Assembly (NCBI RefSeq): GCF_000189635.1
Contig: NW_002476317.1
Span: 186,001-250,000 of the forward strand
Length of the DNA stretch: 64,000 nucleotides
Direction of reading: 5' to 3'
From: Tetrahymena thermophila SB210
Lineage: Eukaryota; Ciliophora; Oligohymenophorea; Hymenostomatida; Tetrahymenidae
Part shown: positions 5,253 to 15,329 of the stretch, piece after piece
Layout of the letters: the number at the start of each line of letters is the position of its first letter
How positions within the stretch are numbered: the first letter of the stretch is position 1
Notes under the pieces: model-generated
What the model was told of the DNA's origin: nothing
The model's database searches: none
What the model saw: only the letters and a program-made list of their open reading frames with translations
Program-made: the position numbers and the translations under genes

Positions 5253-8200
5253 ATGGATATAGAAAAAAATAAAGATATTTAAGTAGAAAAGAGTTCTCCC
5301 GAAAGAGAGGAAGATGCTCAATAAACAGATTTCGTTCGTATCACAGGTATAAATAATCCTAAAAAATATCTATCATATCGAAGGCATTTAATGCAAATTT
5401 TTGGAATTTTTCTTATCAAGCATGGCTAAACCAAAAATTTTACTTTTTATAAGACTGATTTCAGTCCATCATTAAAAGATTTTTATATAATTAGTTTAAA
5501 AAAAACTAGTTTTAAGACATTTTTATAGTGATAGATAGATTAAATCTTATTTTTTATAGATGAAGTAATAAAATAAATTTTTTTAATAAAAAAGAAAAAT
5601 TGACTGATGTCAAGATGATTAATAGATTCAACTTCTAGCTCAGAAACTGCAAAACTAACGAAGATAAATTAAATGATCTCAAGGTTCTTTCTGAAACACC
5701 ATCTCCTATACTCAACAGGTTTTCATTTATTTTTTTTCTTTGTCTTTCTAAATATTTCTTTATTTTTTTGATTTTCCTCTTCTTCTAACCTCCTATTCCC
5801 TCCAATAATATCACATTCAAATAGGCCTTAAATAGACTCTATTAAAACTTTATAAACTAAAAACTATGTAATTAATATATTCTTTAACTAAATTAGATTT
5901 TATAGCTCTCCTGGGCTTAGGACTCTTGGTGAGTGGATTTATGAAGGAAGTGATAACATCACTTAAAATTCTGAGGTTTTAGAGAAAATTTTTGCTCTTT
6001 TAAAGGAAATTACACTAAAAAATGAACATTTTGAAAACGCTCATGTAAGTTTATTTAATTAAAATCAAAGAGTCATAATTTTATTATAAATTATTAAAAG
6101 TATCTCGGACTAGGTATAGAGAAGATGCACATAGCCTAACAAAATAGTGAATACAACGAAGCACTAAATATTTTTTATAAGTTTTATAACCTCAACAAAT
6201 AAATCATCAACGATTGGCTTGAGTCATTTAAAAAAAGAAGTCAAGACCCCAACTTTAAAAGACAGTAACTTTGGTCTGAATAGCAAAAATTAAACGTTAA
6301 GAGAAGCTTTAATGCTGCTAATAACAATAATAACATGAACAACAAATATCAATAAAAAGACTTTAACTAAAATAAATTTAACTAGGGCAACAACTTTTAA
6401 AAAGTAAATATTTAAATTTTAAATTTTTATTTTAATTTTAATATACTTATAAAAAAGGGTAATAATGGTAAATATGGAGCTAATAACTTTTAAAGAGGAG
6501 ACTCTCCTCCTAACTAAAAAAAAGTAAAATACAATAACGGAAACGCAGGTAGCACTGGTTTTAATAACAATATAAATCTTAACCAAAAGCCAGGAGCTAA
6601 ATCTGTCAGGTATAAAATGATGATAAATTATTTTAATCTGTTCTATTTAAATCTATTCAAGCTAAATTATTAGACATTTTATTAAAAATAATTGATTAGC
6701 TATTTATTTATTTATCTCCTTAGTCATATTGAGTACTAAGTACATTCATTATATTAAAATTTCTTTAAAAAGTTTATTCAAAGAATGAACTAACTATTTT
6801 TATTTTTTGAATGAAGAAATTGAATAATGAATGAAATAATAGGTTTTCATTATAAATAACCCATCTAGTACTTTCTATTGAGTTACTTTCTTACAATAAT
6901 TAAATAAATAAACAAATATACTCAATAAGACATTTTTATTTTTTTGCTGCTGGCTAGTTTGATTTTATGTTCTTCCTCAATCAATTTATGACGATTTTTT
7001 TTTAAGTATTATCTTTTGACTAATACTTCAAATAATATTGGGATTATTTTAATCATAATATGGCCAGTCTAAAAATGTGTCTAAAATATCTTAAAGTAAA
7101 GTGTAGATTGGTTAGCTAGTTGAATATGGACGAAATTTGATTAATTGTATAATTTTTTCAATAAATAGGTTTTTAAGTGTTTTTAAAGGGCAGTTTTTAG
7201 CTGAAATAAATTATAATTGCATAAATATTAATGCATAAGTTAATATATATTCATTATAATTTTATTATTTTACAAAAAGAAAGAAAGAAAAAATTAAATA
7301 ATAATTGAAATTTAACTGAAGTACAAAAAGTTGGTGTACTTTTCAGTTAGTTAGCGGTTAGTTTTGCATGTCAATATAGACTAATTGTTTATTTTTTAAA
7401 GATAATAGATTATCAAATATTATCTTTATCTATAAATGGATAATTATCACGAATTGACATGCTTTACTAAAAATTTTAAGCTTTTACATTTTAAAGTAGA
7501 TATCAAAATATTTACTTTGACTGCTCCTAAATTAGCACTAAACCCTTAAGACAATTAATTTTAAAATATTCAATAATTAGCTAAGAATCAACAAATTTAA
7601 TTATTATAAATACAACTCAGCTCTAATAATTAAAAAAAATTTTAGAATAGATTTAAATTATAATTCATTTTAAAAAATCTTTTCATTAATTTTTATAATT
7701 TTATTAAAGGTTCGCTAACACTGACTAAGTTAAGAGATTCAGAAAAGAAGATGAACCAATTATGCCTGATTTGACTGAAGAAGAAATAGAAAAATACTAA
7801 GAAGAGTGTATTTAAAAGAAATAGTCTGATAGCCATATTTTTACAAGTTAAGATATGAAGAAAAGAGAAAACAAGCTCGAAAAAGAAAGCAGAAATCAAT
7901 AAAAGGAGTCTGAAAGAAAAGAAAGATAATTGCTCGATGAAATGAAAGAAGACATTTAATGGAGAACTCCATAAAAATTAAAAGGTCTTCATTCTTAATA
8001 TTTTGAAATCCTCAGCTCAGAATCAACTGAGAAAGAGCTACATAAATAGAGAATACTCTGTAAATTACAAAGTTTATATGGAAGTGATGCTGAGATTCCT
8101 TCTTCTCCTTCTTACGAAAATGTTATTAATGATAAAATATCTGAAGAATAACCCAAATAAGTTTATTTAAATAAAATTGATGAGAATGATTTCATTTAAA

Positions 8201-10094
8201 TTATAGAAATGGCAATAAGAAGTAAATTAAATTTTAAAACAAATTTGTTTTATTAAAATTATTTTTAGGTGAAAATTAGCAACAAAAGTAGAAAGTCGAA
8301 AAGAAAATTCTTAAAAGTATTCTTAAAATTTCTAAAGAAGAAAAAGAACTACAACGTAAAAAAATGATACAAGAAAAGAAAAAGCAAGCTGAAGACGAAG
8401 AGAGACTTAAAAGTTAAATAAATCAGAATACCTTCAACTAATTGATTGACTTGATTATGCACAATAAAAACAGCAGAGATGAGCTAAGTAATTTTTTATT
8501 AAATAGCTAATTATTTTTCAAATTTTATTAACCAACTTTTATTTTAGAATAATCAGTTAAGGCCTTAGGACTCACAGAAATAGAACTTTAAAATATTTAC
8601 CAAAACATAAATGTTATAAAAAAGCTTTGGCATCAAAGATAATCTGTTTCAACTCCATCTAATGTTAGGTATGGCCCTGCTGTAGAAGAGAAAAAGGAAC
8701 AAGAAAAACCAGCAATTCCCCCTCCTTAAAATCCCCTCACATAGCAACCATTCAATAGCAACTTTATAAATAGACCAGCCAATAACAGTTTGCCAAACAG
8801 CTAAAACTAGTAGCCTGTTATTAATAATCCTTTTTCTACATCTTACAACCAATAAAATTCTTAAAACACTACCTATAACTAGTATCGTAGCTAATAAGTT
8901 AATCCTCAATAAACTTTCTCTAATAATTTCAATAATAACTTCTCAAATAATTAGCCTAAGTAGATGCAAGGAAACAATTCATTTAATGCCTAATAAAATA
9001 ATTTTGGAGCCTCCTAAAGATTCTAAAGTAATAATAATCCTTAAAACAACTAGCATATTGTGCCTCCTCCTCATTCCCATTCATAATAAGGCACTGAGTT
9101 TAATTAACAAAACCCAGAATAAAACTAATAATTCCATGGTATATAAAATTAAAATTTTTCATAGGAACATTAAAATTATTATTAGCATCCTTAAAACAAT
9201 AACAATTTTAGCTACAATCCTAATAATACTAATAACAGAGCTGGTCCTTAGGCTCATAGACCAGTTAATTAGCCTCCAATTTCTTAACAAAACAATCCAT
9301 CTAATAACTAATTCTATCCCTAATAAAATAGAAATTTCAATAACAATAACTAATAGCCATAATAACATCACATTAAATAAAATAACTATAGTATACCACC
9401 TAATTAAGCAACGGGTAACAATATTCAACATCAATAGAAGCAACCGATTGAATAGTTCTAATAAGATTAAGGATATTAAAATAACTTAGGATAACCTTCA
9501 TAAATGATTTAAAATAAAACTTTTATTCCATAAAAATAATTATAAAATCAATAAAATAAGCCTAATTTTAACTCTAATATTCCTGATTAAAACGATTAAA
9601 AATAAATTGCTACTCCTAATTCCGGTGTTGCCTAACATTAAAACGAAGAAAGTAAAAAGCACATACCTTGTAGAATGTATCATTCAGCTATGGGTTGTAG
9701 ATATAATGTTTGCAACTTCATGCATAATCCTGAATATTAAGGTAGACCAGTACCTAATATGTAAAATAAAGTTAGACCTATGTATGCACTAAGTAAAAGT
9801 GGAGAGAGAAATTTAGAAAACACGTTTGCATATAATAAAGCAAACTATGAAAAGAGAACTGGATAACTAAACACTTTACCCTTTCCATAGGCAGGTGGTA
9901 TATCTACTACTTATCCTCCTCCATTACTTAACTAATAATAAAACAATCAATTTACTAACTTACCATAAGTGTAGCAGCAAAGTGTTAGACCACAAGGTCA
10001 AATCTAGTCTTAGTAGAATAGCATGTTTATATTTTAATAAACCAATCCTCTTTTGAAGTAATAGCAAAAACCTTAGCCTCCTTAAAAGATATGA
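5253..10094 (+). CDS. PPP1R10: PNUTS/PPP1R10-like PP1 regulatory subunit
   Basis: About 1,000 residues. The order of parts matches PNUTS, the nuclear PP1-targeting subunit. (1) An N-terminal helical region (KLTDVKMINRF ... LGEWIYEG ... LNKQIINDWLESF) resembles the TFIIS N-terminal domain. (2) A KSVRF motif fits the PP1-docking RVxF consensus and is followed by VKRFRKEDEP, about where PNUTS carries further PP1 contacts. (3) A charged helical region follows, then a long Gln/Asn/Pro-rich stretch. (4) Near the C-terminus is a CCCH zinc finger, C-x8-C-x4-C-x3-H (starts CRMYHSAMGC). Exons join in frame. The acceptor for exon 2 is the AG just before AAAAATTGACT at about 5597. The RVxF codons are split by an unusually long intron (about 6610-7710). 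The stop is TGA at 10092. In animals PNUTS holds PP1 at chromatin in transcription termination; that role here is inferred from architecture. Confidence 0.7.
7028..7460 (-). CDS. Possible small gene nested inside an intron of the PNUTS-like gene
   Basis: On the strand opposite the host gene, a frame between about 7200 and 7030 has clear protein character (FRPYSTSQPIYTLLQDILDT, then FLDWPYYDQNNPNII and TGA), unlike normal translated intron sequence. It follows a good acceptor (TTATTTCAG). I propose a tiny first exon starting at the ATG at 7460 (MSI) with a GTGATA donor, in matching phase, giving about 60 residues. The first exon is the weak part. A further open stretch lies just downstream on the same strand (about 7050-6940, containing KLIEEEHKIKLASS) in another frame and could be a missed last exon. 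No family recognised. Confidence 0.45.
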
Positions 10095-11067: not shown

Positions 11068-11563
11068 TCAATTCAAACCTTCGGGCTTTGAATAATCAAC
11101 TTTTTAATCCCCCATTTATTGTTTTTCCTTCATTCTTTAATTAACATTTTATTAAGCTTTTTCCTTTATCTTTTGAATCTTATTAAACAAATATCTTTAT
11201 TCAGCTTCTTCGTTTTCCCATGAACTCTCTTCAGTAAAACCTAGCTTTTCAAACTCTTCTTTTTCCATAAGTCCAGCTTTCATTCTACAACCTAAATAAT
11301 CTATTTAATGCTATCTACATCTTTTAGGCATGAGTTAATGTTTCAAAACGCAAGAATTGTATGCTTTAGCAAATTCATCGCATTCATGGAAATGATCAAG
11401 AGGAAAACTACCTTTATCTATTTGATTATTAACAAAAAAAGATTTAGCAGTTGTATTTTGGCATATGTTTATAATGAATTAAGCCAACTTCCTAAATTCA
11501 ATATTCTATTTATTTAACACTAAATGATTGATTACCAGGAGCCTTAAAAGACTATCTTGACAT
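11068..11563 (-). CDS. COX19: COX19, cytochrome c oxidase assembly factor (twin CX9C)
   Basis: About 123 residues. COX19 is a small CHCH protein of the mitochondrial intermembrane space needed for copper delivery and redox control in cytochrome oxidase assembly. The sequence shows GSFPLDH followed by two exact CX9C motifs (CDEFAKAYNSC and CRQHQIDYLGC) and the diagnostic RMKAGLMEKEEFEKLGF tail of the COX19 branch. A charged extension (~45 residues) follows. I chose the ATG at 11563 (MSRQSFKAP) with an intron whose donor is G|GTAATC and whose acceptor is AAAG|GTAGTTTT. This rebuilds APGSFPLDH in phase, close to other COX19 N-termini. The downstream exon alone lacks a suitable in-frame ATG. A divergent spacer separates it from the phosphodiesterase gene. 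Confidence 0.9.
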
Positions 11564-12329: not shown

Positions 12330-15329
12330 ATGGATAGCTTTATTAACTTTGAAGAGCCACCAATTACAAAACCAAAGCTTAGAGTTAATTTAGAATAAAT
12401 TACCAACCCACCAAGAGGTGAAACTAGGACATCTTAGATTTCAATAGAATATAATTAGCCTCAAATCCTTTATGATTTTAGAACAAAGCACCAAAAAACT
12501 CAAGATGAAAAAAATATAGTAAAATAAATATTTTCAATAGTTACAAACTCCCTAAATATTAATAAATTGATATTTAGTAGCCAGTAGAGAAGAAAAAAAC
12601 AGTAATTATAAATTCTGCTAAACCTGTTTAAACCGAATCCAACTAAAATAATGCTCTCTCCTCCAGCGTTAATACTCATCCTAATAATTAAATGAATACA
12701 TAAACACACAAAACTGCAGAACAAGATAAAAATTTAGATTAAAATTAAATTGACCCTCCTCTTTCGACGACTTAACCTGCTAATGGGAATTTGAATAGTC
12801 AAGAACCAGTATTAGATGGATCCACGCACAAAGATGAAGTGAAATAATATTTTAAAATAAAGTAAGCTATAAATTTAAAAATATTTGTTATTTTTTCTTT
12901 AAAATAAGTTCAATTAACTAGCTATAATCTAACTTACTAAATAAACCAATAATTAACTATTCAAATAATTTATACAGAGAGATATCTTTAATGAGGAGAA
13001 GGCTCAAAAAATTTCTTAAAAATTCGATTGTTAGTTGGTTTTTTTACATTATAACATGGATATATTTACTGATCATGTTTGTTTCTATTTCTCTTCAGCA
13101 GTTACTAAATTCTGACGATGCTTATTTAGCCTCAGTAGTTATAAATTATATAGAATTATTTTTACTAGCATGTCTTATTTTGGAGTTCCTAATGGCAGCA
13201 TATACTTAAGGATTTTGTGTAAATTAAATAACTATTTCTTAACTAGAATAAAATAAAAATTTTTAAAAAATTAATTAGAATTATTTTAAAGTCAAATTGC
13301 AAGTACTAGATTTTATTATAATATTTCTTACACTGGCACTTGTTATCCTAGATTTATTACTCGGAAAAAGTCCTTAATTCACAAAAATAGCAGCAGTAGC
13401 TAAGGGAATGTTTAGATTCTTCAGAATTATACTTCTTTTTAGAAAGGTTAATTTAATTAAATATGTTCTTTATTTATTAAGCAAATTTATTTATAGAGCA
13501 ATTAATTCAAGAAAATAAAGGCAGCTTCTACGATAAAAACACCTGCTGAAAGAATAATTGATATTTTTACTGACTTAAAAGAGTTTTTTGATTCAAAAGA
13601 TATCATTGAAGATATTGAGTGGTCTATAAGTGTTATAGCTTTAAATAAAATTTATGAAACCAAAATTGTGATTTAAGGTGCAGAAAACAATAAAGAAGTA
13701 AATAAAATATTTTAATGTGAATTGAAAAAAGATAATTTTTTCCAAAAAGATAGTAGATTGGATTAACTATGGAGCTAGACAAAAAGAAGAGCAAGATAAA
13801 TAATTTGATTAAGATATTCTTTCGAATAAAAATATAGATACAAAGTTATAGACTTATGTGAATTAGATTCCTCAACCTATTTTAAAATATTTTAAAGATG
13901 TAAATGAATTGAGCTTTGATTGCTTTGAAGTGGAAAAAATAGCTAAAGGGTCGGAGACTTCATTTCTACTTCTTTATTTGTTTTAATCTAATAATATCTT
14001 AGCTTCTGTAGATATAGAACCTGATATTTTATTCAACTTCTTCAAACAAATTGAAAAGGGTTATAATGATAATTTATATCACAACAGACTCCATGCATTT
14101 GATGTCTTACAAACTGCAAATTTCTTTTTGAAATCATGCAATTTTATTGAAATAGCAGCTATAAATGAGTTTGATTTATGCACCATATACATTTCTGCAG
14201 CTTGCCATGATTACGATCATCCGTATTAAATCAAACATTCAAAATTCTAAAATTTCATAAATTTTGTTATCTTTGATATTTATTTTAACAAAAAAAGCAT
14301 GATTTACCATTATTTTATTTTATTTTTAAAGCTAAAAAAACTACCATAAATAAGATAAATAACAATAAATATTACTTTTAATTATTAACATAAATTCTTT
14401 TATTATAAAACTTATTATTTTAAATAGAGGAGTTAATAATGCCTTCATCATAAATACTTCTCATGAAATTGCCTTAACTTACAATGGTAAACATTTTTTT
14501 TCATACACTGTTAATTTTTAATATACTTATTTCTTTCATCAGACTAATCTGTATTAGAAAATCATCATGCTAGCAAAACATTCTAATTGTTTAATGATCA
14601 AAATTTAGACATTACTGCCAACTTTACAAAGGAATAATATAGATCATTTAGAGAAATGGTAATATCTATAATATTAAGTACAGATATGGCAAAACATTTT
14701 TCTGACATAGCCAAATTAAAAAGTAGACTAGGAACAGGTTTGTTGATTGATTTATTTATTTATTTGCATTTTTTTTTTTTTTCATTTTTGACTTTATTTT
14801 AGTTTTTAATATGAATAACAAAATATATACTTTTATTTGAATATTTATTTGTAGATGATTATGACATAAAAGGCAAAGATAAATAAATGTGTATTGACAC
14901 AATTATACATGCTTGTGATGTTTCTAACCCTGTTAAGACATGGAATGTTTATCAGCAATGGGCTCATAGAGTGTTGTCCGAATTTTGGAGCTAAGGTGAT
15001 CAAGAAAGAAGTTAAGGAATCTAAATAACTTACTTGTGTGATAGATATACTACAAATACTGCTAAAAGTTAAGTCGGATTTATAGATTTCATTGTAAAAC
15101 CTTTATATGAAGTAATATGCAATTTTTTGCCAGAATTAAAAAATTATATGCAATAAATCGATTCAAATAAACAAAAATGGAATGAGCTCGTAAGTTTTTA
15201 CGATTAAGACTTAGGTATAAATTTTCATTTAAATTTTTTTAAAAACTAATAATTTTATATATTTAAAATAAATAAATAGAAAGAATAAAGAACTAAATAT
15301 AATAATTATAATAATCAAAAATAATTTGA
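12330..15329 (+). CDS. Voltage-sensor-like domain fused to class I cyclic-nucleotide phosphodiesterase
   Basis: Roughly 730 residues in about ten exons. A ~170-residue cytosolic-type N-terminus is followed by four hydrophobic segments arranged like S1-S4 of a voltage sensor. S2 (IELFLLACLILEF) has two Glu ten residues apart, as in Kv channels. S3 (LQVLDFIIIF) has the usual Asp. S4 (MFRFFRIILLFRK) shows RxxRxxLxxR. There is no pore segment. The C-terminal half is a class I PDE: YHNRLHAFDVLQ, the metal-binding HDYDHPGVNN, ENHHAS, and the later HACDVSNP carrying the metal-ligand Asp. It should hydrolyse cAMP and/or cGMP at a membrane. Gating by voltage is inferred from the S2-S4 pattern only. 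The start is the ATG at 12330; the last exon after 15280 is less certain. Ciliates are known to fuse channels with cyclases, so a fusion on the degradation side makes sense. Confidence 0.8.

Follow-up and report, generated by a model that had tools for sequence, protein, structure and literature searches.

The stretch of DNA analyzed here (the window) comprises 64,000 nucleotides of contig NW_002476317.1 of Tetrahymena thermophila SB210, labeled C214:186001-250000 in the genome that was searched (101 Mb, 445 contigs). Its base composition is of ciliate type (~22% GC), and long reading frames appear once TAA and TAG are read as glutamine. A gene on the forward strand at 12330-15329 encodes a protein in which a voltage-sensor domain (VSD) without a pore precedes a cyclic nucleotide phosphodiesterase (PDE). 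The gene runs from the ATG at 12330 to the TGA ending at 15329, precisely the limits given in the original prediction, and its frame is open under translation table 6 (ciliate code) but not under table 11. The spliced reading yields a protein of 762 residues from ten exons separated by nine introns of 47 to 205 bases. A polar N terminus is followed by four membrane helices (S1 to S4), a linker, and a complete PDEase_I domain; four hydrophobic segments ahead of a class I PDE had been predicted, and the spliced protein agrees. The features of the gene are listed below, with helix limits set by eye and residues numbered on a 574-residue piece starting at base 12970.

12330-12518, 12578-12861, 12909-13218, 13279-13446 and 13497-13697, plus strand: exons 1 to 5 of the whole gene, from the spliced reading and conserved intron positions
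13750-14222, 14428-14486, 14543-14737, 14855-15214 and 15280-15329, plus strand: exons 6 to 10, on the same basis
12330-13026, plus strand: polar, low-complexity N-terminal region with a basic stretch right ahead of S1; holds introns 1 and 2
13027-13095, plus strand: S1 helix
13129-13203, plus strand: S2 helix, with E62 (13153-13155), L69 (13174-13176) and E72 (13183-13185)
13219-13278, plus strand: intron 3, between S2 and S3, 60 bases long and free of in-frame stops; phase 0, at the same position in all four paralogues
13294-13356, plus strand: S3 helix, with D94 (13309-13311) and D108
13381-13446, plus strand: S4 helix, with K125, R129 (13414-13416), R132 (13423-13425), R138 (13441-13443) and K139
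13447-13496, plus strand: intron 4, immediately 3' of S4; phase 0, at the same position in all four paralogues
13497-13697, plus strand: linker exon, with a basic stretch, then KTPxE(K/R) and later NK(I/L)YE, common to all four paralogues
14077-15159, plus strand: PDEase_I catalytic domain, introns included, with metal-ligand, catalytic and glutamine residues present

From base 12970 onward, the GC content of the exons is 0.272 versus 0.129 in the introns. The acceptor of intron 2, upstream of S1, has two workable choices by eye, and S1 to S4 are unaffected by either. Retention of intron 3 would only lengthen the S2-S3 loop by 20 residues, since its 60 bases contain no in-frame TGA, and may represent an isoform. 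DNA repeats within the gene included nothing of note.

The four helices form, with near certainty as judged from sequence, a VSD by descent that is fused to the enzyme. When the helices of the window protein were compared alone with the whole PDB (E up to 10), all four matches were voltage-sensor proteins, although weak: TPTE2 (0.0048), 3wkv (0.43), and two voltage-sensor phosphatase entries (0.51 and 1). The same helices alone matched no Pfam family. Ion_trans was matched by three of the four VSD-PDE fusions found in this genome (best E, 2.9e-17), the exception being the window copy. Comparison of a profile with voltage-sensor families, proposed in the original prediction as a check, was more sensitive: with an E cutoff of 1, a profile of the four members matched 93 PDB sequences, and the best 60 of these were all VSD proteins (Cav, Nav, T-type, two-pore, bacterial “ion transport protein,” CatSper2, Hv1, 3wkv, and TPTE2). 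The same four sequences, reversed, realigned, and run as a profile against the PDB, gave no matches. The similarity is therefore beyond chance, and chance hydrophobicity is rejected as its source. Among single-domain proteins the profile scored 55 bits with 3wkv, 49 with TPTE2, and 45 with Hv1, while one Cav repeat scored at most 38 in the four Cav alignments shown. Entry 3wkv carries the PDB label “Ion channel” and is an Hv1 chimera. Four other matches in the genome were opened (the three nearest and one more); Pfam identifies two (L044 and L045) as nearly complete Ion_trans domains, and the remaining two resemble channel VSDs by eye. Predicted structure models were of low confidence; for model 2, Ci-VSP ranked among the top matches.

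The charged residues conform to the voltage-sensor fingerprint that had been proposed. S2 contains two glutamates ten apart (E62-x9-E72), S3 contains D94 and also D108, and S4 (RFFRIILLFR) has the pattern R129-xx-R132-xx-L135-xx-R138, flanked by K125 on the N-terminal side and K139 on the C-terminal side. Seven of 11 charged positions in the membrane segments of the window protein are invariant across the four VSD-PDEs, versus nine of 80 uncharged positions (Fisher P = 3e-4, a guide only, as the segments were set by eye and the four sequences are related). The invariant residues are E62 and E72 in S2, D94 and D108 in S3, and R129, R132, and R138 in S4; positions 125 and 139 are lysine or arginine in every member. 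The usual charge-transfer aromatic position of S2 is occupied by L69 in the window protein, by phenylalanine in the copies on contigs C114 and C179, and by isoleucine in that on C184 (alignment of the four), and the full E-x6-F-x2-E center is kept in two of the four. This aromatic residue is common in voltage sensors but not defining. The doubt about gating that was originally raised from the leucine is reasonable for the window copy, which has the most divergent VSD among the four; two paralogues, however, retain phenylalanine.

After S4 the chain continues into a polar linker and then the PDE, and the S5-pore-S6 region of a voltage-gated ion channel is missing. A hydropathy scan of the gene-finder model detected no additional membrane helix in the stretch from the VSD to the PDE, although S4 itself scored below the threshold in that scan. 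The protein is thus predicted to lack a pore, in line with the original description. Basic residues cluster ahead of S1, between S2 and S3, and after S4; these parts of the chain would face the inside, which would place the PDE in the cytosol.

The catalytic domain matches PDEase_I (PF00233) along its whole length (profile positions 1 to 238 of 238; E = 3.1e-87). No other Pfam family matched with an E value of 1 or less, and neither the upstream conserved regions (UCR1/UCR2) nor a PTEN-like phosphatase was found. Among the best 60 of 151 matches, the nearest solved catalytic domain is that of PDE4D (1.3e-68), with other PDE4 entries and PDE1B, and PDE9 and PDE7 are further off. Fifteen of 18 active-site positions are identical to those of PDE4D in all four VSD-PDEs, and the conserved set includes the equivalents of the catalytic histidine, the metal ligands, Asn321, Gln369, and the clamp residue Phe372 (PDE4D2 numbering). 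The deviations are alanine for T333 in the window protein, cysteine for Y329 in two paralogues, and valine for I336 in all. The intact active site supports a catalytically complete class I PDE and, because of it, the predicted role in breakdown of cyclic AMP (cAMP) or cyclic GMP (cGMP), as first suggested. Asparagine at position 321 favors cAMP or dual specificity without proving either.

The genome contains at least 11 PDE loci (a lower bound), and at least four carry the VSD fusion: the window gene and those on C114, C179, and C184. The C114 and C179 genes were found with the window query, and that on C184 was recognized by reading upstream of its PDE. A six-frame scan of the ten other PDE loci with the VSD profile, covering ~4 to 5 kb upstream of each PDE, found the VSD at three (L032, L033, and L035) and not around the other seven; the next matches had E values of 0.012 (within L035 itself) and then ≥0.02. 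Identity among the four proteins is 25 to 39% in the VSD and 44 to 51% in the PDE. Two introns, one between S2 and S3 and one directly after S4, are identical in position and phase in all four genes. In addition, a linker intron is common to three of the four, and two PDE introns are common to the window and C114 copies, the C184 model used in this comparison stopping inside the PDE. Given the intron positions shared across copies, a single gene most likely already encoded the VSD, linker, and PDE before the paralogues split. The predicted fusion of a pore-less voltage-sensor-type domain to a PDE is therefore strongly supported by the profile and its reversed control, by three paralogues of like organization, by the shared introns, and by the invariance of the charged residues typical of a VSD.

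In a nine-row PDE tree, the four VSD-PDEs and human PDE4D were separated from four other PDEs of the genome with support of 100/100, and the four VSD-PDEs grouped together at 89/97, below the mark for firm support. The tree included four of the seven loci without a VSD as gene-finder models; those on C13, C134, and C173 were left out for their poor gene models. The other PDE group (L034, L036, L037, and L039, on C278, C157, C97, and C306, respectively) has no VSD in the ~4- to 5-kb upstream stretch, and the N-terminal parts of these PDEs look regulatory, GAF-like by eye. No relative was found in the contig sets scanned, but these are prokaryotic and viral, and the negative result therefore carries little weight.

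The organization of the protein is closest to that of the voltage-sensing phosphatases (Ci-VSP and TPTE2), in which a pore-less S1-S4 domain and a short linker also precede a cytosolic enzyme, and TPTE2 is the best PDB match of the window VSD alone. Unlike these proteins, whose enzyme is a PTEN-like lipid phosphatase, the VSD-PDE has a class I PDE and the KTP linker. Its catalytic domain agrees with PDE4 at 15 of 18 positions, including N321 and Q369, but a membrane domain stands where PDE4 has its UCR, none of which was found by Pfam. A sensory membrane domain is fused directly to a PDE in the choanoflagellate rhodopsin-phosphodiesterase, which senses light rather than voltage. Adenylyl cyclases fused to channels in Paramecium, Tetrahymena, and Plasmodium (Weber 2004, as cited in PMC4588038, PMC12223298, and PMC10651576) similarly join a channel-type VSD to a cAMP enzyme in ciliates; they are described as having a K+ channel pore and making cAMP, whereas the VSD-PDE is pore-less and predicted to degrade cyclic nucleotides. 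Phytophthora and other flagellates are reported to have VSD-nucleotide cyclase proteins, restricted to stramenopiles and alveolates, which also carry a VSD without a pore helix on a cyclic nucleotide enzyme (PMC12223298). That enzyme is a cyclase rather than a phosphodiesterase, and function is putative in both. The PDEs alpha to delta of Plasmodium, according to one account, combine a multi-transmembrane region with a PDE domain but have up to six transmembrane helices, and one splice form of PDE alpha has four predicted helices (PMC5746546).

The VSD-PDE would thus belong with the known kind of VSD-regulated enzyme, and the fusion to a PDE was not found described in the literature searched, mainly titles and abstract openings, although annotation databases may list the domain pair. 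In a 2023 review, the complete set of VSD proteins reported consists of voltage-gated channels and Hv1, a Na+/H+ exchanger of sperm, and, as enzymes, the adenylyl cyclase of protozoa and the voltage-sensing phosphatase; no phosphodiesterase is listed (PMC10651576). The word “phosphodiesterase” occurs neither in its text nor in a review of voltage sensors from 2024 (PMC13095418).

The preferred interpretation, to which a probability of roughly 0.55 is given, is that the protein is a voltage-sensing phosphodiesterase: the conserved KTP linker connects S4 of the pore-less S1-S4 domain to a PDE4-like enzyme in the cytosol, and membrane potential controls cyclic nucleotide breakdown. S4 would move in the membrane field and should pull on the KTP linker, by analogy with Ci-VSP, in which coupling is reported to require the linker that joins sensor and enzyme (PMC6298786). 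As in voltage-sensing phosphatases, this pull may alter how exposed or how active the PDE is. Hyperpolarization of Paramecium is described as accompanying a rapid rise in cAMP, and the adenylyl cyclases of this ciliate carry K+ channel domains (PMC4588038); breakdown activated by depolarization would for this reason be a natural partner, and depolarization would most likely increase cAMP breakdown. Together with synthesis linked to hyperpolarization, the enzyme could form a push-pull cAMP switch at the plasma or ciliary membrane. In the window copy, leucine in place of the charge-transfer phenylalanine would shift gating. Control of the PDE by membrane potential may also be relevant to ciliary beating, as the original prediction suggested. 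Radial spoke 3 of Tetrahymena is associated with a PDE of a kind that the cited text does not state (PMC12399478).

Alternatively, helices of voltage-sensor descent may now only anchor or target the PDE beside cyclases in the plasma or ciliary membrane, with voltage having no effect, a reading that is tenable but rather doubtful. Two observations weigh for such an anchor and against voltage control: leucine or isoleucine replaces the charge-transfer phenylalanine in two of the four proteins, and the window VSD has diverged furthest. Furthermore, multi-transmembrane PDEs are known from Plasmodium and are described as membrane associated (PMC5746546). An anchor, however, needs no intramembrane charges, and yet the acidic residues of S2 and S3 and the basic residues of S4 are invariant at 25 to 39% identity; two members also retain the full E-x6-F-x2-E center, and the linker is conserved.

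It is improbable that the VSD senses voltage or another cue with the opposite sign, hyperpolarization activating breakdown, or acts through dimerization or a partner protein rather than directly through the linker. The sequence does not fix the sign, and the polarity of VSD proteins depends on coupling. Nevertheless, a hyperpolarization-activated cAMP-PDE would oppose the cAMP rise described for Paramecium (PMC4588038), unless it provided feedback.

It is very unlikely that the VSD itself conducts protons or cations, like Hv1, and is modulated by the PDE. Hallmarks of Hv1 are an S1 selectivity aspartate (D112 of human Hv1) and the S4 motif RxWRxxRxxN; in the alignment to 3wkv the aspartate position is occupied by Tyr32, invariant in all four proteins, and the S4 motif is absent. 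The rank of 3wkv as best single-domain PDB match and the reported ability of isolated VSDs to conduct (PMC10651576) are the points in favor of such a pathway. Finally, although the gene structure is predicted from sequence, joins at short AT-rich introns can be misjudged, and those of the paralogues were chosen using anchors, a gene-model artefact in which a VSD gene merely adjoins a PDE gene is rejected, as the order, linker motif, and shared introns are alike at four loci on four contigs and the spliced reading has no stop between the halves.

Euplotes chromosomes mostly carry single genes, and for this reason the same fusion is suspected in that ciliate. PDEase_I and Ion_trans are reported there to be “always adjacent” in four subgroups and were read as functionally associated genes (PMC8670190). 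The odds are about even that voltage-sensing phosphodiesterases represent a new class of voltage-controlled enzymes, in which potential directly sets cyclic nucleotide breakdown without ion flux. Under this proposal, ciliates would possess both the cyclase and the PDE arms, the differing charge-transfer residues of the paralogues would cover different voltage ranges, and the Euplotes pair would be the same fusion, hence ancient in ciliates. If the enzyme is voltage controlled, it would enable membrane potential to lower cAMP or cGMP directly in ciliates and would offer a genetically encoded tool by which voltage sets a cyclic nucleotide.

Upstream of the VSD-PDE gene, a plus-strand frame of 634 residues at 8190-10094 is rich in glutamine and asparagine and, by eye, contains a CCCH-like motif; Pfam returned nothing for it at E up to 0.01. 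A minus-strand frame at ~11068-11430 contains, by eye, a twin CX9C motif (C-x9-C twice) like that of small mitochondrial assembly proteins, and a 120-residue piece of it matched no Pfam family. Farther along the same contig, ~70 kb beyond the VSD-PDE gene, L045 (C214:269500-277500) is a cation-channel gene (Ion_trans, 1.1e-40). Six weak VSD matches (E, 7.5e-4 to 0.12) lie within ~43 kb at C244:23172-66521, perhaps a cluster of channel genes.
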